From the NCBI GenBank assembly GCA_025356715.1, contig JANXRU010000185.1, positions 1-22,299 on the forward strand: 22,299 bases of DNA, in the 5' to 3' direction. This stretch comes from Bacteroidota bacterium (lineage in GTDB: Bacteria > Bacteroidota > Bacteroidia > B-17B0 > B-17BO). Shown here in pieces: positions 7,779-22,170 of the stretch. Within the stretch, counting starts at the first letter, position 1, and every line of letters starts with the position of its first letter. The notes beneath the pieces are model-generated. The model had not been told where the DNA came from and did not search any database. It saw only the letters and a program-made list of their open reading frames with translations. The position numbers were made by a program, and so were the translations under genes.

Positions 7779-10151
7779 ATGAGATGCCTATTTTTTTTAA
7801 CCATCATTTTATCTTCGGTTTTTATCAGTCCCATTTACAGTAAACCCTGTAAAACAACCGATACAAGATCTGATTCTATTGATATTACTAATTATAAAAT
7901 TTCGCTCAGCATCAGAAACCTTAGTTTAAAAACAATTAGTGGTTTTACAGAAATAAATATGCTTGCCAAAGTATCTGGAGTGAATAGCATTAGGCTCGAT
8001 TTCTTAAAATTAACACCAACCAAAATTTCAATTTCAGGAATTGACCAAGCTTATTCCAAAAACGATTCGATTATTTTTGTTCAACTATCATCAACCAAAA
8101 ACATTGGAGATACTTTTACTTTAAGAATTGAATATACTGGGCAGCCAGTAACCGACCCTCAATGGGGAGGCTTTTACTTTTCGGGCAATTACGCCTTTAA
8201 CTTGGGAGTTGGATTTGTTGTGGATCCTCACAATTTTGGCAGATGTTGGTTTCCTTGTTTTGATAATTTTATTGAACGCTCAACCTTCGATTTATATATT
8301 ACTACCGATAGTGGCTACAAAGCTGTATGTGGCGGAACCCTTCAATCACAAACAACCAATACAGATAATAGCATTACATGGAATTGGAAATTACAAACAC
8401 CTGTTCCCTCCTATTTAGCATCTGTTGCGGTAAGTAAATATGAACTGGTAAACTCAACTTATACCGGGTTACAAAGAAATATTCCAATTGCCATTGCTTC
8501 GTTACCGTCTGATACTTCAAAAGTAAAATCATCATTTGTGCACTTACCAAATGCTCTCAGTATTTTTGAAAACCATTATGGAGCCTATCAATTTGAGCGA
8601 GTTGGATATAGTGTTGTTCCATTTTCGGGTGGAGCTATGGAGCATGCCACCAATATTGCTTATCCATTATTTGCTGTAGATGGTACAACAACATACGAAA
8701 CACTTTATGCACACGAACTTTCTCATCATTGGTGGGGAGATTTGGCAACATGCAGAACAGCAGGCGATATGTGGCTAAATGAAGGCTGGGCAAATTATTC
8801 GGAACGTGTGTTTTTAGAAAATGTATACGATAAGCAGCATTACCGCGATGATGTAAAAAGCAATCACCTAAGTGTGCTCAGATATGCACATATTAAGGAT
8901 GCCGGCTTTAGGGCAGTAGCAGGAATTCCCCATCAATATACGTATGGCGAGCACGTGTATCACAAAGGTTCAGATGCTATCCATACCTTAAGAACTTATA
9001 TGGGCGATTCTGCATTTTTTGCTGCCTGCAAATCCTATCTTAATCAGTATAAATTTAAAGATGTGAGCACAGTTGATTTGATTCAGCATTTTAAACCTTT
9101 TACCAATGCCGATTTAAGTTCATTTTTTAATGACTGGATTTTAAATCCGGGTTTCTGTGATTTTGTTATTTCGTTAATGGTAACTGATGGCTCTTTAAAT
9201 ACTAAGGTTATAGTTCAACAAAACTTAAGGGCTGCCAATAATTATTATACAAACGTTCCGCTTTCCATAACCTTTTACGACCAACATTGGAATGCCGTTA
9301 CCAAAAATTTCACCATGAGTGGAGCAAGTAAAGAAGTAAGTTTTCCACTTTCCTTCTCCCCCATTTTTGCTGTAATTGACCAAGACGAAAACATCAGTTA
9401 TGCTCGAACAAAAAACACAGTAGTACTTAAAGCTGCCGGATTTACTCAATTAAATGATGCATTAATGGGCATAACCGTTACTTCTATCTCCGATTCGGCA
9501 ATGTTGCACGTTGAGCATCATTGGACAGCTGCTGATCAATCTAAATGCACTATTCCTGGCATTTATGTTTCAAATTATAGGTATTGGAAAGTGGATGGAA
9601 TTTGGCCTGCTAATTTTAAAGCAACAGCGTTTTTAAACTATGATGGAACAATGCCAAGCGCATTTAATAGCGGTTATTTAGACCATACTTTTATTCGCCA
9701 AACGGAAGATAGTTTGGTATTGCTTTGGAGGCCTGATGAAACGGCTAATTGGCAAATCGTTGCTGATAGTATTGCAGGAAAAACTATGGGGGGAAGTAAA
9801 ACAGATAAGGTGGGTAGATTTTGGTTGAAAGACCTAAAAAAAGGAGAATATGTTTTTGGAATGTATGATGTAAAACTAGGTATTAATGAGCCTCAAGAAT
9901 CATCTATTAAAGAAAAAATACTTATTTACCCAAACCCATCAAACGATATTATTAAAATAGTAGCTGATTTTACACATCAAGATGCGGTGGTTAAACTATT
10001 TGATATACAAGGAAGATGTGTATTACAAAATAGCTTTTCATCATTGCTGCAATCCCTTGAAATAGATGTAACACCATTACAAAAAGGAAATTACATTTTG
10101 CAGTGGAATGATGGTGTTAATCATGTCAACAAAAACATCATCATTAAATAA
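7779..10151 (+). CDS. Secreted M1-family aminopeptidase with T9SS sorting domain
   Basis: This is a 790-residue zinc aminopeptidase exported to the cell surface or medium. The signal peptide is MRCLFFLTIILSSVFISPIYS. The M1 N-terminal beta domain follows, then 'GGAMEH' (residues 284-289, substrate N-terminus recognition), HELSH at 312-316 and the third zinc ligand E335 in 'WLNEGWA'. The transition-state tyrosine is probably Y394. The region ~460-700 has no recognisable ERAP-like helical domain. Residues ~713-790 are a type A sorting domain ('ILIYPNPSNDIIKI...KLFDIQGR...KGNYILQW'). Its start lies 38 bp after serA. It may be read through from the ser genes, since I see no clear terminator or promoter between them. 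Confidence 0.93.
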   Translation: MRCLFFLTIILSSVFISPIYSKPCKTTDTRSDSIDITNYKISLSIRNLSLKTISGFTEINMLAKVSGVNSIRLDFLKLTPTKISISGIDQAYSKNDSIIFVQLSSTKNIGDTFTLRIEYTGQPVTDPQWGGFYFSGNYAFNLGVGFVVDPHNFGRCWFPCFDNFIERSTFDLYITTDSGYKAVCGGTLQSQTTNTDNSITWNWKLQTPVPSYLASVAVSKYELVNSTYTGLQRNIPIAIASLPSDTSKVKSSFVHLPNALSIFENHYGAYQFERVGYSVVPFSGGAMEHATNIAYPLFAVDGTTTYETLYAHELSHHWWGDLATCRTAGDMWLNEGWANYSERVFLENVYDKQHYRDDVKSNHLSVLRYAHIKDAGFRAVAGIPHQYTYGEHVYHKGSDAIHTLRTYMGDSAFFAACKSYLNQYKFKDVSTVDLIQHFKPFTNADLSSFFNDWILNPGFCDFVISLMVTDGSLNTKVIVQQNLRAANNYYTNVPLSITFYDQHWNAVTKNFTMSGASKEVSFPLSFSPIFAVIDQDENISYARTKNTVVLKAAGFTQLNDALMGITVTSISDSAMLHVEHHWTAADQSKCTIPGIYVSNYRYWKVDGIWPANFKATAFLNYDGTMPSAFNSGYLDHTFIRQTEDSLVLLWRPDETANWQIVADSIAGKTMGGSKTDKVGRFWLKDLKKGEYVFGMYDVKLGINEPQESSIKEKILIYPNPSNDIIKIVADFTHQDAVVKLFDIQGRCVLQNSFSSLLQSLEIDVTPLQKGNYILQWNDGVNHVNKNIIIK

Positions 10152-11164: not shown

Positions 11165-11419
11165 AAGTTATTGTTTAAGTGAAAGAGGCGAGCCATTGGG
11201 TTCGCCTTTTTTGTTTTTAAAACTCACTTTCAAGCAACTTTTTTATTTCCTATACTTTGTTACATTCGTTTAATAAAAGAAAAACAATACATTTATATTA
11301 TTTAATTCAAAATGTAAAATAGGTAAAATAAATGAGTATGCTATGTATTATTGATAGGCAAAATTTAAACAATTATAAATGAACTAACCATTTAAGTTTG
11401 GCAGCAATATATAAGTTAT
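11165..11419 (+). repeat. Dispersed repeat, copy 1 (terminator plus cassette landing site)
   Basis: About 250 bp, almost all of the 306-bp gap after hbd, is repeated at 19261-19532 and partly at 18219-18360. It opens with the terminator hairpin (11186-11207), then AT-rich sequence including TTACATTCGTTTAATAAAAG, and ends ATATATAAGTTAT. Compared with copy 3 it lacks about 14 bp in the middle (around 11310). Its last bases are where cassette 1 begins. I see no open frame in it. Confidence 0.9.
11186..11217 (+). terminator. Terminator of hbd
   Basis: AGGCGAGCC and GGTTCGCCT form a nine-pair stem with one G-U, a short ATTG loop, then TTTTTTG. The same hairpin is reused at 18241 and 19284. Confidence 0.85.
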
Positions 11420-11467
11420 CGGTCAGGCTATGACGACAGTGCAACAACTTAACAATCGGACAGTAAA

Positions 11468-12664
11468 ATGAAATTTTTAGCAAACATAAACAAGACAAAA
11501 AATCATTTAGCGACCATAACGGAGAACCTAAAAGTTCACGACCAAGCATTTTTTGCTGTTGCATTTTTAAAGACTTCTGGACTAAATAATCTTGCCAAAC
11601 CAATTAAGGACTTTTTAAAATCAGGTGGACAATTAATTATTGTAGCTGGACAAAATTTTGCACTTACAGAGCCAAAGGCATTACACGAACTTCGTAACCT
11701 TTTTAAACCATACCCGACATCAAAATTATTTCTTGCAAAAGCAAATGCAGCAACAAATGTATTTCATCCGAAACTTTATCTATTTAAATCACAAAAAGAC
11801 TGTTGTGTAATTTCAGGTTCTGCCAACATCACAAAGGGCGGACTTATTGACAACAAAGAAACTTCAATAATCGCAGACTGCATTGAGAGTGAAAAAATTT
11901 GGGTTGACGCAAAAAATTATTTTGACAATTTATTAAACCTTGACAATTCAGACGAAGCAACACTTCTTGTTATTAAGCAGTATGAGACATTTTTTGAACA
12001 GCAAAAACAATATAACAAGAAAGCTAAACCGATACCAACTAAGACAAAATCTCAATTGGCATTTGACTATAATAATCTTGTAAAGCATTTTAAGAAATTC
12101 AATAACTCTGAGCGACAAGAGAATTTCAAAGGGAAATTAATTAACTACAAAAAAGCCAAAACTATTTTAGACCAAATCGCAGACAATACTCGTTTGACAC
12201 AAACCCAATTTGAACCGCTTTTAGACAGTTTAGTGGGAAGTAAGGACGAATATAATCTTTGGCATTCAGGAAGTTTGTTTAGACTTAGACGTTCTGTATA
12301 TCCTTATTTCAAAGAGTTTCGTGACTTAGTTCGTTATATCCGTGACAACAAAAATCAGACAGCAGAAATAGTTTTTGAAAATGCCAAAGAGAAGGTGAAA
12401 ATGATTGAAGGTGCTGCTGTTAATTACATTACAGAAATAATGATGACTTATAACAACAAGGACTTCGCTAATATGAATAAAAATCCTTTGACAGTTTTAA
12501 GGACAGAAGGCGGAGTAAATATTAAAGCCTCATCATCTTCATTTTCTGGTGCAGACTATGACGAATACTGTGAACTTATAAAAGAAATTCGTTCTAAACT
12601 TGGACTACAAAATATGCTGGAAGCTGACAGTTTCTTTAATGAAATATACTGGGAAATTAAATGA
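11468..12664 (+). CDS. PLD-like nuclease with McrB-associated type C-terminal region
   Basis: Predicted cytoplasmic protein of 398 residues, probably a nuclease or phosphodiesterase. A single HKD-type site is seen at residues 100-120: H100 and K102 in 'FHPKLY', then 'ISGSANIT' with N120 and an acidic 'NKE' at 129-131. A single motif means the active site is normally completed by a dimer. The C-terminal half contains 'FANMNKNPLTVLRTEGG', 'SSFSGADYDEYCELIKEI' and 'NMLEADSFFNEIYWEI'. From memory these resemble a domain found in McrB-like restriction proteins. This suggests a defence role, which I infer and cannot test here. All 20 Asp codons are GAC by hand count, unlike the chromosomal genes. 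It is the only gene of cassette 1. Confidence 0.8.
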   Translation: MKFLANINKTKNHLATITENLKVHDQAFFAVAFLKTSGLNNLAKPIKDFLKSGGQLIIVAGQNFALTEPKALHELRNLFKPYPTSKLFLAKANAATNVFHPKLYLFKSQKDCCVISGSANITKGGLIDNKETSIIADCIESEKIWVDAKNYFDNLLNLDNSDEATLLVIKQYETFFEQQKQYNKKAKPIPTKTKSQLAFDYNNLVKHFKKFNNSERQENFKGKLINYKKAKTILDQIADNTRLTQTQFEPLLDSLVGSKDEYNLWHSGSLFRLRRSVYPYFKEFRDLVRYIRDNKNQTAEIVFENAKEKVKMIEGAAVNYITEIMMTYNNKDFANMNKNPLTVLRTEGGVNIKASSSSFSGADYDEYCELIKEIRSKLGLQNMLEADSFFNEIYWEIK

Positions 12665-12703
12665 CAACTAACCTAAAAATAACGACCGAAGAAGAAGCCC
12701 GAA

Positions 12704-12839
12704 CCGATAACACGGGCTTGGCAAAAGTGGCGGTTCAGTACTCCTCAGACAGTTTAGATGTAGCCGAAAGTTTGGTTCTCCGCATCAACATTTGTGGTGA
12801 AAATCGCCGCCATCGCAAACCCCCGAACCGTTAGCAGGC
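12704..12839 (+). repeat. attC-like element A (end of cassette 1)
   Basis: This imperfect palindrome of about 135 bp has outer arms CCGATAAC (12704-12711) and GTTAGCAG (from 12830). The inner arm around 'GTGGCGG' can pair with 'CGCCGCCATCGCAAACCCCC'. The first arm is the reverse complement of the start of cassette 1 (GTTATCGG at 11415-11422). The last arm belongs to the start of cassette 2. Confidence 0.7.
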
Positions 12840-12881
12840 ATTACTAATAAGACACAAAAAATAAAAATAAATAATTTAACC

Positions 12882-13466
12882 ATGAAAAAAATACAATTAT
12901 TCTCGCTTTTAATCTTATCCCTTTTCTATGGGTGTACACTCCCGACAGTACTTTATTTTAATACCCAACCATTTGTGACAGCTTATAAAACAAATATTAA
13001 TAATACTCTTAATATCTGTATTGACAACAATATTAAGGACTCAACAGTTATTAAATCCGCAGGAATAAAACCTATGACAATTGTACAATTTCGACATAGT
13101 TTAGAAGATGCTTTAATAAACACATTCAAAAATACATATACAGACGTATCTGTAACCAAAACACCTATCCAAAAAGGTTTAAGTTTTATATTAATAAAAG
13201 TAACCCCCGACTGGAATAAAAAGTCATCTCGGACAGTTGTAACTGGGTCCTATGGAAATGTCAGTTCTTATACTAAATATGAATTAGAAATGAAAATAAC
13301 CTACCAGGCAGTTATATATTTAAACGGTGAAAAATTAGGAGTTATTGAAAACACTATTGTTAGTGAAAAATCTACTTTCAAATTCAGTGACACTCCAGAC
13401 GTATTTAAAGATGGTATTAAAATAATGTGTGAAGACATCTATAAGCAGACTATAAAATATAAATAG
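12882..13466 (+). CDS. Predicted lipoprotein of unknown function (cassette 2)
   Basis: A 194-residue protein with a lipoprotein signal (MKKIQLFSLLILSLFYGC, lipidated Cys 18), so it is expected on the periplasmic side of a membrane or on the surface. The body is a mix of alpha and beta with 'QFRHSLEDALINTFKNTY' and beta-rich 'YELEMKITYQAVIYLNGEKLG'. This recalls small periplasmic-facing lipoproteins, but I do not recognise a family. It is the only gene of cassette 2. Asp is GAC in 7 of 9 codons, in line with neighbouring cassette genes. Confidence 0.75.
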   Translation: MKKIQLFSLLILSLFYGCTLPTVLYFNTQPFVTAYKTNINNTLNICIDNNIKDSTVIKSAGIKPMTIVQFRHSLEDALINTFKNTYTDVSVTKTPIQKGLSFILIKVTPDWNKKSSRTVVTGSYGNVSSYTKYELEMKITYQAVIYLNGEKLGVIENTIVSEKSTFKFSDTPDVFKDGIKIMCEDIYKQTIKYK

Positions 13467-13470
13467 TAAC

Positions 13471-13664
13471 GCCTGCTAACACGGGGCAATTGCGTCAGCG
13501 GGGTTGACGAGTAGTTTTTTTGCTTTGCTTTTGCCCCTTCGGGACTTTTATTTTCATAAAGCAAAAAGAAAAAGTTTTGTATCTTTAAATTTAGTTTTCG
13601 GTTGGTAGACCGTTTGACGGTTTTTAAACCCGCCGAACGCAAACCCCCGAAACGTTATGTGTCA
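13471..13664 (+). repeat. attC-like element B (end of cassette 2)
   Basis: First arm GCCTGCTAAC (13471-13480) is a perfect 10-bp complement of the cassette 2 start GTTAGCAGGC (12830-12839), and the match extends to 13 of 14 bases. The second arm, CGAAACGTTATGTG (13648-13661), starts cassette 3. The inner arms 'CACGGGGCAATTGCGTCAGCGGGG' type sequence and 'CCCGCCGAACGCAAACCCCC' pair imperfectly. At about 190 bp it is longer than the other three elements, with extra AT-rich sequence and small hairpins (near 13532 and 13608) at its tip. Confidence 0.7.
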
Positions 13665-13727
13665 GCTTAAAAACCGACCCCGACCGACAGTGCGAAAACT
13701 TTTGTTTCCAAATTTAGAAACTTTATT

Positions 13728-13735
13728 TATCTTTG
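13728..13735 (+). promoter_or_regulatory. Possible -7 box for the HigB/HigA cassette
   Basis: TATCTTTG fits the Bacteroidota -7 element TAnnTTTG, 25 bp ahead of the higB ATG. The nearest TTTG upstream (13701) is 23 bp away, too far for a standard -33 box, so this is half a promoter at best. It would let the cassette drive its own genes. Confidence 0.35.
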
Positions 13736-13760
13736 TGGCGTTTAACAATCAATTTGGCAA

Positions 13761-14101
13761 ATGAAGTATTTTGAGACTAAGTTTATGGAAGAAGCAAACG
13801 AGTTTATAGCAGAACTTGACCCAAAAACCATCAAAAAATATTTTACAACATTGACCTTGCCGAACAAACAAATGACCCGAAACTCTTCAAAAAACTACAA
13901 AATGACATTTGGGAGCTTCGGACAAAATTTGGTGGACTTCAAATCAGATTGCTTGCATTTTGGGACAAATCAAACAACAAGGAAACATTGGTAATTGCGA
14001 CCCACGGTTTCATAAAAAAGGTTGACAAAGTGCCAGCAAACGAAATTGACCGAGCAGAAAGATTGAGAGACAAATATTTTAACAACAAATCTAAAAAGTA
14101 G
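13761..14101 (+). pseudogene. higB: HigB-like toxin (RelE/ParE superfamily, Gp49-like), frameshifted
   Basis: Translation starts as 'MKYFETKFMEEANEFIAELDPKTIKK'. At the A6 run 13833-13838 the frame changes. Reading on in the -1 frame gives 'IFYNIDLAEQTNDPKLFKKLQ', 'FGGLQIRLLAFWDKS' and 'THGFIKKVDKVPANEIDRAERLRDKYF', the typical C-terminus of Gp49/HigB-type ribosome-dependent mRNA interferases. Combined length is ~113 residues, normal for the family. As written, the zero frame ends after 77 residues. Causes could be a lost A in a run of seven (true mutation or base-call error) or a -1 ribosomal slip on AAAAAAT. It lies 5 bp before the antitoxin, in the toxin-first order usual for higBA. Confidence 0.8.
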
Positions 14102-14106
14102 AAAAC

Positions 14107-14433
14107 ATGGCAATGAAAGAAATAAAGACCTATTCACTTACCGAAATGAAAGATAAATATATCGGTAAAGTTGGGACAGCAGACCGTGACGAATACGAAT
14201 ACGAACTTCGTATGGACGTGTTAGGAAAAATGATTAAATCTGCAAGACAAGAACGCCACTTGACACAGGAAGAACTTGGCAAACTTGTTGGGGTGCAGAA
14301 AGCTCAAATTTCTAAACTTGAAAGCAGTGCTAACAGTGCGACAATTGACACCGTTTTGAGGGTTTTTAGAGCATTAAAAGCAGAAATTAATTTTAACGTA
14401 AAACTTGAGGACAACTTTGTTAAACTTGCTTGA
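14107..14433 (+). CDS. higA: HigA-like antitoxin, XRE-family HTH
   Basis: A 108-residue DNA-binding antitoxin. A helix-turn-helix of the XRE/Cro type covers residues ~36-92 ('LGKMIKSARQERHLTQEELGKLVGVQKAQISKLESS' region, then 'VLRVFRALKAEINF'). The ~35-residue leader is the part likely to bind the toxin. It should neutralise HigB and repress the shared promoter. An ATG two codons on (14113) is an equally possible start. It is intact even though the toxin is frameshifted, which would be harmless to the cell. Asp is GAC in 5 of 6. Confidence 0.88.
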   Translation: MAMKEIKTYSLTEMKDKYIGKVGTADRDEYEYELRMDVLGKMIKSARQERHLTQEELGKLVGVQKAQISKLESSANSATIDTVLRVFRALKAEINFNVKLEDNFVKLA

Positions 14434-14450
14434 CCGAAAAGAAAGCCGAA

Positions 14451-14584
14451 CGCATAACAAGGGGTTTGCGATAGCGGGGGTTCCGTGCTTCGCAGACAGT
14501 TTTGTGCAAGCCGAAATTCAGTTCTCCGAACAAAGTTTAGTGGTAAAAATCCCGCCCATCGCAAATCTGCAAACCGTTGTGCCC
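14451..14584 (+). repeat. attC-like element C (end of cassette 3)
   Basis: First arm CGCATAAC (14451-14458) matches the reverse complement of the cassette 3 start GTTATGTG (13654-13661) at 7 of 8 bases. Inner arms 'GTTTGCGATAGCGGG' (14463-14477) and 'CCCGCCCATCGCAAA' (14551-14565) make a long stem. The element closes with GTTGTGCCC (14576-14584), which starts cassette 4. Overlapping open frames across this stretch are artefacts of the palindrome. Confidence 0.72.
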
Positions 14585-14654
14585 AATGCTATTGCTTCGT
14601 TCAACCGATAGTGCTAACCTTATACTTTCAACTAATTCTTAGGGCATTTTTAAC

Positions 14655-14662
14655 TAACTTTG
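14655..14662 (+). promoter_or_regulatory. Possible -7 box for the Fic gene
   Basis: TAACTTTG fits TAnnTTTG and ends only 4 bp before the ATG, so a transcript from it would be nearly leaderless. No matching -33 box is visible. Confidence 0.25.
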
Positions 14663-14666
14663 GACA

Positions 14667-15449
14667 ATGACTTTGCAGCTAAAAATTTTACAACAGGACT
14701 TTTTTGAGGAGTATAAAAATCAACTAAAGATTGATATTGAGAGTGCGTTTGCCTCCATAAAAAAGAAGTCACAAACAGTTGAGGACTTCAAATTTTATCT
14801 TGCAAATTCTGCTGTGCATTCATCCAACATTGAGGGTAACACCGTAAGTTTTGACACCTATTTAAAAGTAAGTGAGTTCAACTTGCATTTAAAGACAAAG
14901 GAGATAAAAGAGATTGAAGACCTCATTTCCGCTTATCAATATGCAAGAGAAAATGAACTGACACTTGAGAACATTTTAAAAGCACACGAAATTTTAACAA
15001 CATCTATACTTGTAAAAAAGGAACGAGGGAAAATACGGAAAGTAAAAGTTGGTGTAAGAAGTGACGGACACTTGATTTACTTGGCTGTTGAACCTGAGTT
15101 TGTAAAACCTGAGTTAGTAAAATTGTTTGCTGACATTTCAATATTGCTCAAAACTAAACTGACAACAACTGAAGTATTTTATTACGCAGCGTTAATACAT
15201 CTGGTGTTCGTTAATATTCACCCATTTGTTGACGGCAACGGCAGAGCAACCCGACTAATTGAGAAATGGTTTTTAGCTAAAAAACTTGGTGACAATTCTT
15301 GGTTTATTACATCAGAGAAAAACTATTGGGACAACAGACCAACATATTATAAGAACTTGCAACTTGGTGTAAACTATTATGAGGTAAAATATGAAATGAG
15401 TATCCCTTTTTTATCAATGCTACCAAATTCATTAACAGAAAAGTTATGA
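14667..15449 (+). CDS. Fic-family protein (class II, self-inhibited AMP transferase)
   Basis: A 260-residue Fic/DOC enzyme that would transfer AMP, or another phosphate-linked group, from a nucleotide to a hydroxyl on a target protein. The active-site loop is intact: HPFVDGNGRATR at residues 185-196 with catalytic H185, D189 and R193/R196. The inhibitory helix lies N-terminal, 'SSNIEG' at 52-57, where E56 would block the ATP gamma-phosphate. This defines class II Fic proteins. The gene needs no separate antitoxin. There is no C-terminal HTH, unlike many Fic proteins of this size class. Asp is GAC in 9 of 10. It is the first gene of cassette 4. Confidence 0.92.
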   Translation: MTLQLKILQQDFFEEYKNQLKIDIESAFASIKKKSQTVEDFKFYLANSAVHSSNIEGNTVSFDTYLKVSEFNLHLKTKEIKEIEDLISAYQYARENELTLENILKAHEILTTSILVKKERGKIRKVKVGVRSDGHLIYLAVEPEFVKPELVKLFADISILLKTKLTTTEVFYYAALIHLVFVNIHPFVDGNGRATRLIEKWFLAKKLGDNSWFITSEKNYWDNRPTYYKNLQLGVNYYEVKYEMSIPFLSMLPNSLTEKL

Positions 15450-19263: not shown

Positions 19264-19532
19264 TTTCGGGTTTAACGTTAAAGAGGCGAGCCATTGGGTT
19301 CGCCTCTTTTGTTTTTAGAACTCACTTTTAAGCAACTTTTTTATTTCCTATTCTTTGTTACATTCGTTTAATAAAAGAAAAACAATACATTTATATTATT
19401 TAAGCATTGTTAGAACCTTCAAAAGGTAAAATAGGTAAAACAAATGGGTATGCTATGTATTATTGATAGGCAAAATTCAAACAATTATAAATGGAACTAA
19501 CCATTTAAGTTTGGCAGAAATATATAAGTTAT
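19261..19532 (+). repeat. Dispersed repeat, copy 3 (full length, cassette landing site)
   Basis: The longest copy, about 270 bp. It is shared with copy 1 through to ATATATAAGTTAT and with copy 2 as far as GTTAGAAC. The match with copy 1 stops at GTTAT, and at the G of this GTT (19528) cassette 5 starts. The gap 19264-19717 contains only this repeat and ~185 bp of AT-rich cassette leader with no clear promoter. Confidence 0.9.
19283..19310 (+). terminator. Terminator of the MORN lipoprotein gene
   Basis: Third copy of the AGGCGAGCC hairpin, here one G-C pair longer and with a shorter T-tract (CTTTTG). Confidence 0.75.
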
Positions 19533-19717
19533 GCCCCATTTCAATACAATGACAAATTGATTTTCTACTTTTGAAATGTTTTAAAGAATACTTCAATTCG
19601 GTTTGTTGAAGCAGAAATAAATTAGTTATTACTGAATAACTTGTTTTACATTCGAATATGCAACGGCATTAAAAAGTTGTTCAAGACACAAGACAAGCGT
19701 ATCAAAATTCTATCCTA

Positions 19718-20431
19718 ATGAAACTAAGCGCTGTTTATTTCTTAATGTTTATAAAAAGTACCATGTGCATTGCACAGCCTAATTTGAAGCCAGACTTAAT
19801 GATTGGATTCGGTGCTTCTTCGAACTTATTTAATCAGGAAAATGTAAAAGGGTTACAAGGTGGCGCGTATGGCATAAATGCAGGTTTCTTCTCAAATAAA
19901 GAATTATATCATAAATATTCTATTTTTTTGGGAATCACCTATAATAGAAAATGGGCAGATAATTATCAAAATCAATTTAATTATTTGTCTAACTGGGTTG
20001 GTGGACCGGAACCTGTAATTGTTTATTTAAATACTTCCATAAAACAGGATTTCTTTGAAACACCTATTATTCTTAAATATAAAATAGCTAAGCTAACAAT
20101 TGGTGCAGGGATCAACTTATCTTATTTATTAATTTCTCAATTTAGTCAGAAGGTCACTGGTAAGTATGCTATTGCTAAATACCCAGCAGCAGATGCGGAT
20201 TTCGACGCTAAGGTTCATTATGTATTTGAGATAAAAAATTATGAGTACACATCCGCATTTAGTAAAGTAAATATCGCTCCTTTAATCAATATTGGCTATA
20301 AATTCAATAAAAGATTTGCCATTGAATATTTGTGCAATTATGATTTAATAACGAATCCGTATTTTAATTTTAAATTCAACAATTTTAATCTTTTAAATAA
20401 TAATTTATTACTCACCCTTAAAATCAACTAA
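19718..20431 (+). CDS. Outer-membrane beta-barrel protein, PorT-like
   Basis: A 237-residue protein with a signal peptide (MKLSAVYFLMFIKSTMCIAQ). It then has alternating beta strands typical of the small barrels of Bacteroidota: 'LMIGFGASSNLF', 'GAYGINAGFFSN', 'YSIFLGITYNRK', 'DFFETPIILKYKIAKLTIGAGINLSYLL', ending 'NNLLLTLKIN'. The 'FETPIILKYK' element is characteristic of the PorT/outer-membrane beta-barrel family. It is the first gene of a three-gene operon; the next gene starts 1 bp after its stop. Confidence 0.78.
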   Translation: MKLSAVYFLMFIKSTMCIAQPNLKPDLMIGFGASSNLFNQENVKGLQGGAYGINAGFFSNKELYHKYSIFLGITYNRKWADNYQNQFNYLSNWVGGPEPVIVYLNTSIKQDFFETPIILKYKIAKLTIGAGINLSYLLISQFSQKVTGKYAIAKYPAADADFDAKVHYVFEIKNYEYTSAFSKVNIAPLINIGYKFNKRFAIEYLCNYDLITNPYFNFKFNNFNLLNNNLLLTLKIN

Positions 20432-20432
20432 A

Positions 20433-21056
20433 ATGAAAAAATTAATGTTATTGTTTGGATTTGTTACAATAGTAGTTGTAACATCTATTTTCAGTTGTCA
20501 AAACGAGAAGAAAGCAGATCAAACTTCTCCTCAAAATCCTACATCTACAATTGCACCAAAAATTTATGGCAAAACAATAGGCCTTTGCACATGTGACCCA
20601 ACCTATACTAACCCTCATTGCGATGATTGCGTGACGTCACACTTTATGAATGGAAATACTACCAAAACAAGTTGGGTTACTTGGACTAGTTGTACTTCAG
20701 ATGATCCAAAATGGACAAATTGTTCTCCAACACCAACCACACAAACTAAACTTACATTTTGTTATGGAGATGCCGCACAACAAGGAGTCTCAACGGATTG
20801 CAACTTATACATGGAGGTTACTGATCCCCCAGCATGCATAAGATGTATTACATACAGCCCCTTTTGTGAAAAAATGAAAGCTACCTGTACCCAGCACGGA
20901 ACCGATGTGGATGTTACCATAGTCTATAACGATCCTTCTACTAATACTGCTGGTACAATTACTTTCACCTATTCGACCGACCCTTTTATCACGATCACAT
21001 GCACTAGCATTCACAATTCACAACAATATACTTATTCTTGCACAGGAAGTTTTTAA
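20433..21056 (+). CDS. Cysteine-rich lipoprotein of unknown function
   Basis: A 207-residue predicted lipoprotein (MKKLMLLFGFVTIVVVTSIFSC, lipidated Cys 22) with a Ser/Thr/Pro-rich linker. The C-terminal domain has 14 further cysteines, many in closely spaced pairs ('LCTCDPTY', 'HCDDCVTS', 'ACIRCITY'). An even number suggests seven disulfides outside the cytoplasm. CxC/CxxC pairs could also bind metal. I recognise no family. It lies between two beta-barrel genes with 1-bp and 24-bp gaps, so it may form a complex with a barrel at the outer membrane. Confidence 0.75.
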   Translation: MKKLMLLFGFVTIVVVTSIFSCQNEKKADQTSPQNPTSTIAPKIYGKTIGLCTCDPTYTNPHCDDCVTSHFMNGNTTKTSWVTWTSCTSDDPKWTNCSPTPTTQTKLTFCYGDAAQQGVSTDCNLYMEVTDPPACIRCITYSPFCEKMKATCTQHGTDVDVTIVYNDPSTNTAGTITFTYSTDPFITITCTSIHNSQQYTYSCTGSF

Positions 21057-21080
21057 CAAAAGAGAAGTTAGAATAGAAAA

Positions 21081-21770
21081 ATGAAGTATTGTTTGTACTT
21101 AGTTGCATTGCTCTTATCCTTAAATGGATATTGCCAGAATAAAATTATTTTGGACAGAATTTCATTTAAAGCAGGTTATTCTAATTCAATTACACAATGG
21201 GGGCAAAGCCCATTTTCCGAAATCAGAAGATGGAGCAGAAGCATCAGTTCTGTGTTTTTTGATCTTCAATACGCACAGCCTCTCACTAAGAATTCTGAAT
21301 TAGCAATAGGCATGCAAGTAATGGAAAAAGGCTTCAAAAGAGATTACTTTCTTGTTGTACCAAATCATTTAGATCAGAGTACATGGTATGAATATCGTCT
21401 TCATTATATTGAATTACCTGTTACTTATATTAAACATTTCAAAAATAATGCTTTGATCTTTGGATTAGTAACTTCTTATTTATATGCAAATGATTTTCGC
21501 TACAGGGAAGTAGATGTAATATATCCTAATAATAATAATGTTAAAACTATTATTGATATCAACTATTCAACTCCCTATCCAAATGATAGATTAAATAAAT
21601 GGGACTTCGGCTTCACGCTTGGTTATTCTAGAAAAGTACACAAGAATTTTGATCTAGAAATAACAACACAAAAACATCTTATAAATGTCGATAAATTTGG
21701 AGGGGTTGATATTGTATATAATCTTTGTTTCTTATTAGGGGTGAGGTATAGATTTTTATCCTATAATTAA
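21081..21770 (+). CDS. Outer-membrane beta-barrel protein
   Basis: A 229-residue protein with a signal peptide (MKYCLYLVALLLSLNGYCQ). Strand-like segments are 'ISFKAGYSNSITQWG', 'SSVFFDLQYAQPL', 'SELAIGMQVMEKGF', 'RLHYIELPVTYIKHF', 'LIFGLVTSYLYANDF' and 'WDFGFTLGYSRKV'. The C-terminus 'LLGVRYRFLSYN' fits a barrel end. 'YIELPVTYIKHF' corresponds to the 'ETPIILKYK' strand of the first barrel in this operon, so the two may be distant relatives. It is the last gene of cassette 5, and no terminator is seen after it. Confidence 0.78.
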   Translation: MKYCLYLVALLLSLNGYCQNKIILDRISFKAGYSNSITQWGQSPFSEIRRWSRSISSVFFDLQYAQPLTKNSELAIGMQVMEKGFKRDYFLVVPNHLDQSTWYEYRLHYIELPVTYIKHFKNNALIFGLVTSYLYANDFRYREVDVIYPNNNNVKTIIDINYSTPYPNDRLNKWDFGFTLGYSRKVHKNFDLEITTQKHLINVDKFGGVDIVYNLCFLLGVRYRFLSYN

Positions 21771-22040
21771 CCCCATTGACAAGTTTCTCAAAAAGTTTGA
21801 CACTTCGACAAGCGTTTTGACATTTAAGCACTTCAAACATTTTTTCCTGTCGATACATTTCACCTTAGTCACTGTGGACACTCTCGCAATTATTCGTTCT
21901 CTGACAGTTGATAAAAAAAAGATAAAGCCGACCTCGCAACAATTTTTTGAAATCGTAAAATTAATTCTATTTTTTCACCGCTGTTGACACGTTTGTCGTG
22001 CCGGACACAGACGTGCAGATTGCAGACAAAAAAGCAACGA
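21771..22040. other. Noncoding tail of cassette 5
   Basis: No convincing coding frame is visible on either strand in this 270-bp stretch. The sequence is rich in TTGAC/GACA words (for example near 21775, 21797, 21815 and 21980), a base texture closer to the cassettes of run 1 than to the operon just upstream. It could be the remains of an older cassette gene. Confidence 0.4.
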
Positions 22041-22170
22041 GGCATAACACTGCGCAGTTGCTATTGCTGGTGACGAGTAAGTTTGTATATTCGTTTTCGC
22101 ATTAAGTTTCCGGTTGTTGACGGTGGCGAAATTCTTTTCAGAAACAGCAGCTGCGCAAAACCGTTAGCTC
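22041..22170 (+). repeat. attC-like element D (end of cassette 5)
   Basis: The outer arms are GGCATAAC (22041-22048) and GTTAGCTC (22163-22170). Inner arms 'GCGCAGTTGC' (22052-22061) and 'GCAGCTGCGC' (22147-22156) pair with one mismatch. The first arm is a perfect 8-bp complement of the cassette 5 start at 19528, 2.5 kb away. Element D shares GTGACGAGTAAG-like sequence after its first arm with element B (TTGACGAGTAG), showing common descent of the palindromes. Confidence 0.7.

Follow-up and report, generated by a model that had tools for sequence, protein, structure and literature searches.

The stretch of DNA analysed here (the window) comprises 22,299 nucleotides of a Bacteroidota genome (contig JANXRU010000185.1) and carries gene units that are each followed by an imperfect palindrome, an arrangement resembling the cassette arrays of integrons (IntI, attI and attC). 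A first-pass annotation had described three such cassettes at 11415–14584; its palindromes and coordinates all check and every cassette has its genes on the + strand, but the range proved too short, as it omits the attI-like repeat immediately before it and a second array at 19278–22166. Since two copies of the attI-like segment each precede a cassette, the window holds two arrays starting at copies of one segment. The parts are listed below, with scores from R2, a covariance model of the palindromic, attC-like element.

11180–11414, + strand: attI-like segment, copy 1, from a terminator-like hairpin to ...ggcagcaatatataa, terminating at the G|TT junction of 11415
11415–12830, + strand: cassette 1, with a PLD-like gene at 11468–12664 (PF13091, E 3.2e-6)
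12708–12833, + strand: attC-like element A, 126 bp (R2 110 bits, E 1e-25; itself a row of the model)
12830–13654, + strand: cassette 2, with an open reading frame (ORF) of 194 aa at 12882–13466 (10-nt match to its own start)
13477–13657, + strand: attC-like element B, 181 bp, with a long loop (R2 38.9 bits, E 1e-7; model row)
13654–14576, + strand: cassette 3, with an interrupted Gp49/RelE-type toxin frame (~13761–14101) and a helix-turn-helix (HTH) gene at 14107–14433
14455–14579, + strand: attC-like element C (R2 109.9 bits, E 1e-25; model row)
14576–15449, + strand: start of a further unit, with a Fic gene at 14667–15449 (PF02661, E 4e-15)
19278–19527, + strand: attI-like segment, copy 2, aligned with copy 1 and terminating at the G|TT junction of 19528
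19528–22163, + strand: second-array cassette, with ORFs at 19718–20431, 20433–21056 and 21081–21770
22045–22166, + strand: attC-like element D (R2 36.9 bits, E 3e-7; not among the model's training rows)

The two attI-like copies, each about 250 bp long and 8.1 kb apart, stop exactly at the G of GTT, with 94% identity over the 100 bp before the junction and 53% after it (random 100-mers have a mean of 50%). Within each cassette the two ends pair with one another. The start of cassette 1, GTTATCGGT at 11415, pairs over 9 nt with the palindrome arm ACCGATAAC ending at 12711; that of cassette 2, GTTAGCAGGC at 12830, pairs over 10 nt with GCCTGCTAAC at 13471–13480; GTTATG at 13654 in cassette 3 pairs with CATAAC at 14453–14458 over 6 contiguous nt; and in the second-array cassette the start GTTATGCCCC and the arm GAGGCATAAC match over 8 contiguous nt. 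The paired cassette ends observed in the first pass are confirmed. Its remark that the arms within a palindrome match only as GTTR/YAAC is correct for the outermost arms, while an inner stem of ~18 pairs does form inside the palindrome. Ordinary integrons are likewise expected to show pairing of a cassette's own ends, which is therefore not what sets these cassettes apart. No recombinase was found inside the window.

An exact pattern derived from the right arm was searched across one genome per species (84,980 species) and returned 46 loci, 40 of which contain the element by the score of a model, R1; these scores are not independent because 32 of the 40 helped to train R1. Six pattern loci (L005, L012, L013, L019, L020 and L042) were dropped, having no R1 match or ~20 bits, two matches on viral contigs, both near 20 bits, were set aside as chance-like, and a single variant is represented three times by closely similar loci (L031, L039 and L041). 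Nearly all of the 40 loci have record titles that point to Bacteroidota or to groups counted with it (Flavobacteriales, Cytophagales, Chitinophagales, Saprospiraceae, the isolate Thermoflexibacter ruber DSM 9560 and one Ignavibacteria); one is titled plain 'bacterium'. The proposal that the system is specific to Bacteroidota therefore agrees with nearly all titles, but not with a locus titled Sphingomonadales that has a full element (L045), nor with tet(X), which has left the phylum (see below).

R2 contains 22 base pairs and was built from 74 elements, A, B and C among them; the scores it gives in the window are above chance. The element is ~126 bp long, with the consensus YAAC-A-A/T-GGGGTTTGCGATAGCGGGG, a loop of ~72 nt and CCCCGCCATCGCAAACCCC-CGAAMC-GTTR. 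By eye, the loop (e.g. window 12733–12804) consists of about four degenerate repeats of ~19 bp (TTTnGTGCT...). With 125 candidates per genome scored, 28 genomes hold from at least 1 to at least 88 R2 copies each. In the 150 best of 236 elements, in an alignment fitted to the structure, 94.0% of stem cells are paired compared with 69.1% after shuffling, and double changes occupy 646 cells compared with 187 ± 9 in shuffled alignments and at most 96 in slid structures, indicating very strong stem covariation. One stem position is A.C in 149 of the 150 rows, with covarying neighbouring positions. Strand asymmetry of the stem mismatches was considered as evidence for a folded strand and dropped, there being no bias (117 G.T and 112 A.C cells). 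The elements have no match in Rfam at E 1, and R2 has none at E 0.05 on plasmid R388, which contains class 1 attC sites.

The 236 R2 matches lie in 55 loci and provide 169 pairs of neighbours that share a strand and are no more than 6 kb apart. In 130 of these pairs the left arm of the element complements the start of its own cassette, the threshold being at least 5 contiguous bases beyond GTTR, all of them outside the model. The same threshold is reached between the left arm and the right arm of the same palindrome in 7/169 pairs, and permuting the starts gave a mean of 5.1 and a maximum of 13 (2000 permutations). The pairing noted in the window is hence kept in most further copies. Among the core sites, GTTR is present in 213/236 and YAAC in 222/235, compared with 15/236 for GTTRRRY and 21/235 for RYYYAAC.

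The enzyme linked to these arrays is an IntI-like tyrosine recombinase, transcribed in the same direction as its array. The first-pass annotation had expected a recombinase with the integron-integrase patch, but none of the 28 element-bearing genomes has an IntI above the TIGR02249 cut-off (265 bits) and the linked recombinases lack that insertion: seven that were scanned scored 195–231 bits, with NF040815 or TIGR02249 ranking top, and residues 182–242 of IntI4 stay unmatched in a test for the IntI-specific additional domain (patch). The spacing from KGxKxR to HxLRH is 64–70 residues overall, and 64–69 in 35/35 recombinases (29 with an array seen and 6 cut at contig ends), compared with 106 in 6/6 IntI, all six near IntI1. 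Most linked recombinases are long enough for an extra N-terminal domain, which gave only weak matches in a function search (HARP- and XPB-DRD-like domains were considered).

Genomes chosen for their elements have 17 intact recombinases whose contig runs on far enough for a search, and 12 of these are followed by a co-oriented element; in nine further cases the contig breaks right after the gene. A second set, which lessens selection on the element, was drawn from an element genome and its relatives, 59 genomes in all, and comprised 27 recombinases that score 280 bits or more. Of these, G011:C75, G058:C16 and L152 were dropped for contig ends and G003:C37 because the first set, where it has an array, had included it. 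A co-oriented element lies within 5 kb downstream of 16 of the remaining 23; ~0.14 would be expected by chance from genome-wide counts, as computed for 21 of the 23 and ignoring clustering. The recombinases of L144 and L145, from one genome, are identical. R2 elements occur in 38 of the 59 genomes, namely in 21/24 with the recombinase and 17/35 without it (Fisher p 0.0025). These figures bear on the alternative that the arrays are ordinary integron cassettes without an integrase (clusters of attC sites lacking integron-integrases, CALIN), moved by a canonical IntI from elsewhere. CALINs are common in bacteria (PMC9668308), and both the integrase-free arrays of the window and the 17 recombinase-free relatives with elements would suit them. 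The absence of any IntI above the cut-off, arrays that begin at an attI-like site beside a non-IntI recombinase, the silence of R2 on R388 and the few starts that fit GTTRRRY nevertheless render this explanation improbable.

First-cassette starts were located by complementarity alone, without a motif, and were found in 15/15 loci of one set and 16/17 of another (31/32 in all). In 28 of the 31 loci the start lies 83–575 bp past the end of the gene or gene remnant (the distance being counted from a remnant in L090, L091 and L092), and in the remaining three at 782, 1612 and 3881 bp. Alignment of 29 of the 31 junctions, leaving out L143, L144 and L150 (where the own start was either not found or distant from the gene), yielded the attI consensus TTGCGTnTATwwAnRA|GTTR. 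When the corresponding matrix is applied to the 442 GTTR sites of the window, copy 1, which lacks the TTGCGT half of the consensus, ranks 7th and copy 2 ranks 10th. This consensus downstream of an IntI-like gene, together with the linkage and co-orientation of the elements, argues against recombination by the host XerC/XerD on dif-like boxes, as in pdif modules, with the linked recombinase as a passenger. The sites of pdif modules are short and are not known to have a covarying hairpin of ~126 bp, and we regard this explanation as very improbable.

In genome G023 the 3′ end of the recombinase gene and the bases that follow it are repeated, with 92–94% identity over 240–287 nt between L092 and both L094 and L095, and 94% over 118 nt between L092 and the end of the full recombinase gene. 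L092, the sole copy readable further, carries an attI and an array and is a stand-alone landing pad like those of the window. The repeats sit twice at contig ends, as if attI pads had been copied round the genome. Separately, the finished plasmid NZ_CP041688 of Chryseobacterium sp. SNU WT5 (L136) carries a recombinase followed by 3 co-oriented elements, and its first junction departs from the attI consensus.

Comparison of cassettes with other loci by BLAST gave 46 rows, several of them reciprocal or within one genome and some with query units that span missed elements; 18 begin at cassette base 1. Seven pairs picked by hand from these rows were compared around G|TT, and in four the identity rises sharply from before to after it (0.47/0.88, 0.54/0.99, 0.57/0.89 and 0.55/0.96). 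One of these four cassettes is common to T. ruber and a Flavobacteriales genome (93% over 1104 nt). Plasmids with tet(X) from Acinetobacter pittii, Riemerella anatipestifer, Myroides odoratimimus and Empedobacter brevis are identical over the 100 bp after G|TT, while the 100 bp before it have 0.49–0.54 identity in 5/6 pairs and 0.89 between Myroides and Empedobacter. Genomes and plasmids differ by cassettes starting at G|TT. Neither outcome named in the first pass as refuting its reading was thus observed, since further copies also keep the pairing of arm and own start. On the A. pittii plasmid NZ_CP040912 (L181, 1944–4843), tet(X5) is the first cassette after a recombinase of the family (52% identity over 83% of the query) and is preceded by an attI-like TTGGCGTATAGCCACTT|GTTATG; no attC was found after tet(X5)-estT there.

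The R. anatipestifer plasmid NZ_CP073240 (L182, 1838–9536) carries 8 co-oriented elements and seven cassettes, most of them with resistance genes: lnu(I), a RelE/HTH pair, an OXA gene, tet(X), estT, a phosphotransferase and aph(3′). Starts and left arms pair over 9–10 nt in 6/7 cassettes, the OXA cassette being the exception. No recombinase of the family was found on this plasmid. Its array resembles a multidrug form of this type of integron that has become mobile. A 2026 study (PMC13148043) describes Riemerella transformants that had acquired, free of homology, aph(3′)-IVb together with flanks of 27 bp on its upstream and 140 bp on its downstream side; the insertion adjoins a relE-hthR pair and its 140 bp fold like an attC. 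The mechanism is termed not yet fully elucidated, and no integrase or attI is named in the available portions of the article. We identify the gene at 8606–9394 of L182 as aph(3′)-IVb because the article names the plasmid (strain RCAD0416), the gene is annotated as APH(3′) and its length is 262 codons. Within its G|TT-bounded cassette the annotated gene is flanked by 28 and 139 bp, so that the flanks sum to 167 bp both here and in the published insert; that independent experiment fits cassette insertion by this system.

The distribution of these sites also bears on the possibility that the repeats are terminators or a family akin to miniature inverted-repeat transposable elements, with gene units that are incidental. 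Dispersed single copies in some genomes (G045 and G053), and rows resembling derived repeats with altered ends, are what such a family would give. A left arm that varies with the start of its own cassette, the covariation of the stem, homologous genes that start at G|TT in different contexts and elements that separate resistance genes one by one are difficult to reconcile with it, and we give it hardly any weight.

We conclude, at a probability of roughly 0.88, that this is an integron-type cassette system of Bacteroidota with a tyrosine recombinase free of the IntI insertion, and read it as a new integron lineage (variant); the sequences show the element family and its stem covariation, the complementarity of cassette ends, the recombinase linkage, the attI consensus and the G|TT starts of the same cassettes in different contexts. 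A recombinase related to IntI and XerA, without the IntI insertion, lies upstream of attI and of a co-directional array in which each cassette consists of one or a few genes and an attC-like element. On circularisation, crossover at G|TT would join the TTR... of the cassette start to its own attC, so that the left arm pairs with its own start, and insertion at attI or behind another attC would yield the observed arrays. The linked recombinase would presumably do the cutting, with a folded single strand as its probable substrate, and at the window arrays, where no recombinase is present, the enzyme would act in trans. The integron-type interpretation of the first pass is therefore partly supported: cutting at G|TT agrees with the paired ends, with homologous cassettes starting there in the clearest cases, with the attI-like site beside the recombinase and with a published transformation insert of matching length (PMC13148043).

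Several observations weigh against this conclusion. The complementarity threshold is missed by 39/169 adjacent pairs, which include gaps with a missed element and likely derived repeats with altered ends (L119, L121 and L128), and by cassette 3 of the window (6 nt in all). Of the 29 attI junctions, three have negative scores with the matrix built from them, the BLAST rows other than the 18/46 do not begin at base 1, and three of the seven cassette pairs have no clean upstream drop (0.69/0.80, 0.93/0.85 and 0.60/0.72). Co-oriented elements are missing downstream of 5/17 recombinases in the first linkage set (L065, L068, L072, L084 and L088) and 7/23 in the second (L149, L151, L154, L155, L156, L196 and L197), and the elements in 17/35 recombinase-free relatives mean that draft genomes, action in trans or another enzyme must be invoked. 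The array recombinases do not form one clade; monophyly was considered but not recovered in the tree, which is rough because 13/19 XerC/D sequences were left out, one branch is extreme and the bootstrap unsettled. Taken singly, the window elements have folding energies that are not clearly below those of shuffles (z is +1.5 for either strand of A, −0.8 and −0.3 for those of C, and −0.9 for one strand of B). Finally, the IntI insertion, which is absent here, has been termed essential for integron function (PMC8138268).

A fuller scenario joins these elements, although we would bet slightly against it as a whole. The system would be a separate lineage with a patch-free integrase, in which an N-terminal HARP/XPB-like domain and the A.C mismatch select the folded attC strand, and attI segments multiply as landing pads for action in trans, as in the window and G023. 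This system, and not class 1 integrons, would first have assembled tet(X), estT, lnu(I) and aph(3′) cassettes in Flavobacteriia, before insertion sequences carried some of them to Acinetobacter and Enterobacterales.

As far as sequence can tell, the system is integron-like in anatomy, with attI, attC, paired cassette ends and the exchange of cassettes as units all present. Like class 1 and chromosomal integrons, it has arrays of co-oriented genes that are each followed by a hairpin site, a G|TT crossover, an attI next to the recombinase gene, and toxin-antitoxin and resistance cassettes. It differs from them in a recombinase without the IntI insertion, mostly with room for an extra N-terminal domain and pointing the same way as the array, in R boxes of GTTRNNN instead of GTTRRRY and in a 126-bp site with an almost invariant A.C mismatch. 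It is not an integron by current definition, because it stays below the IntI profile cut-off and lacks the patch and the GTTRRRY core. In the Treponema chromosomal integrons, which belong to another phylum, intI is likewise transcribed toward attI in the cassette direction (PMC3607928). With CALIN elements the window arrays share the absence of an integrase, but both begin at copies of one attI-like segment and have another type of site. The aph(3′)-IVb integration in R. anatipestifer involves the same element after the gene, for which the authors note an attC-like fold (PMC13148043). The short motif spacing is shared with IntI-like recombinases beside IS91-family transposases (64 residues in both), which differ in their setting: two of them (L179 and L180), on Sinorhizobium and Paracoccus plasmids of Alphaproteobacteria, lie directly upstream of IS91-family transposase genes.

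Reviews list Bacteroidota among the phyla with integrons, and IntegronFinder surveys report few in Bacteroidetes: that of 2016 had only In0 (an integrase lacking attC sites), and that of 2022 a single complete integron, from Salinibacter ruber (PMC9024848). A genomic survey selected intI genes by the IntI patch (PMC2426708). The literature searched, with preprints and most subscription papers outside its reach, contains no description of the system, in agreement with its having been proposed as undescribed, though the attC-like fold after one resistance gene is noted in PMC13148043. It is a widespread, apparently undescribed, integron-like gene-capture system, and drug-resistance genes, tet(X) among them, seem to be part of its cargo. 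With at least 1 to at least 88 sites in each of 28 genomes, it would widen the known range of integrons, bring into question the need for the additional IntI domain in cassette recombination and reveal a phylum-wide pool of cassette genes, and it would provide a route by which Riemerella could take up resistance genes without homology and by which tet(X) could first have been mobilised.

Searches for a close relative of the window that might show an empty site found none; only short stretches of the attI segment matched, in 12/108 genomes of one set and 0/7 of another. The Fic unit has no attC of its own before 19278, R2 giving no + strand match between C and D at E 10, and the ORF of cassette 2 has no Pfam match at E 0.01. 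The three ORFs of the second array encode unknown proteins. In cassette 3, PF05973 (E 7e-13) is recognised from the second toxin piece alone and HTH_3 at E 6.5e-11; the toxin frame at 13761–14101 is broken by a frameshift or sequencing error, while its partner gene is open.

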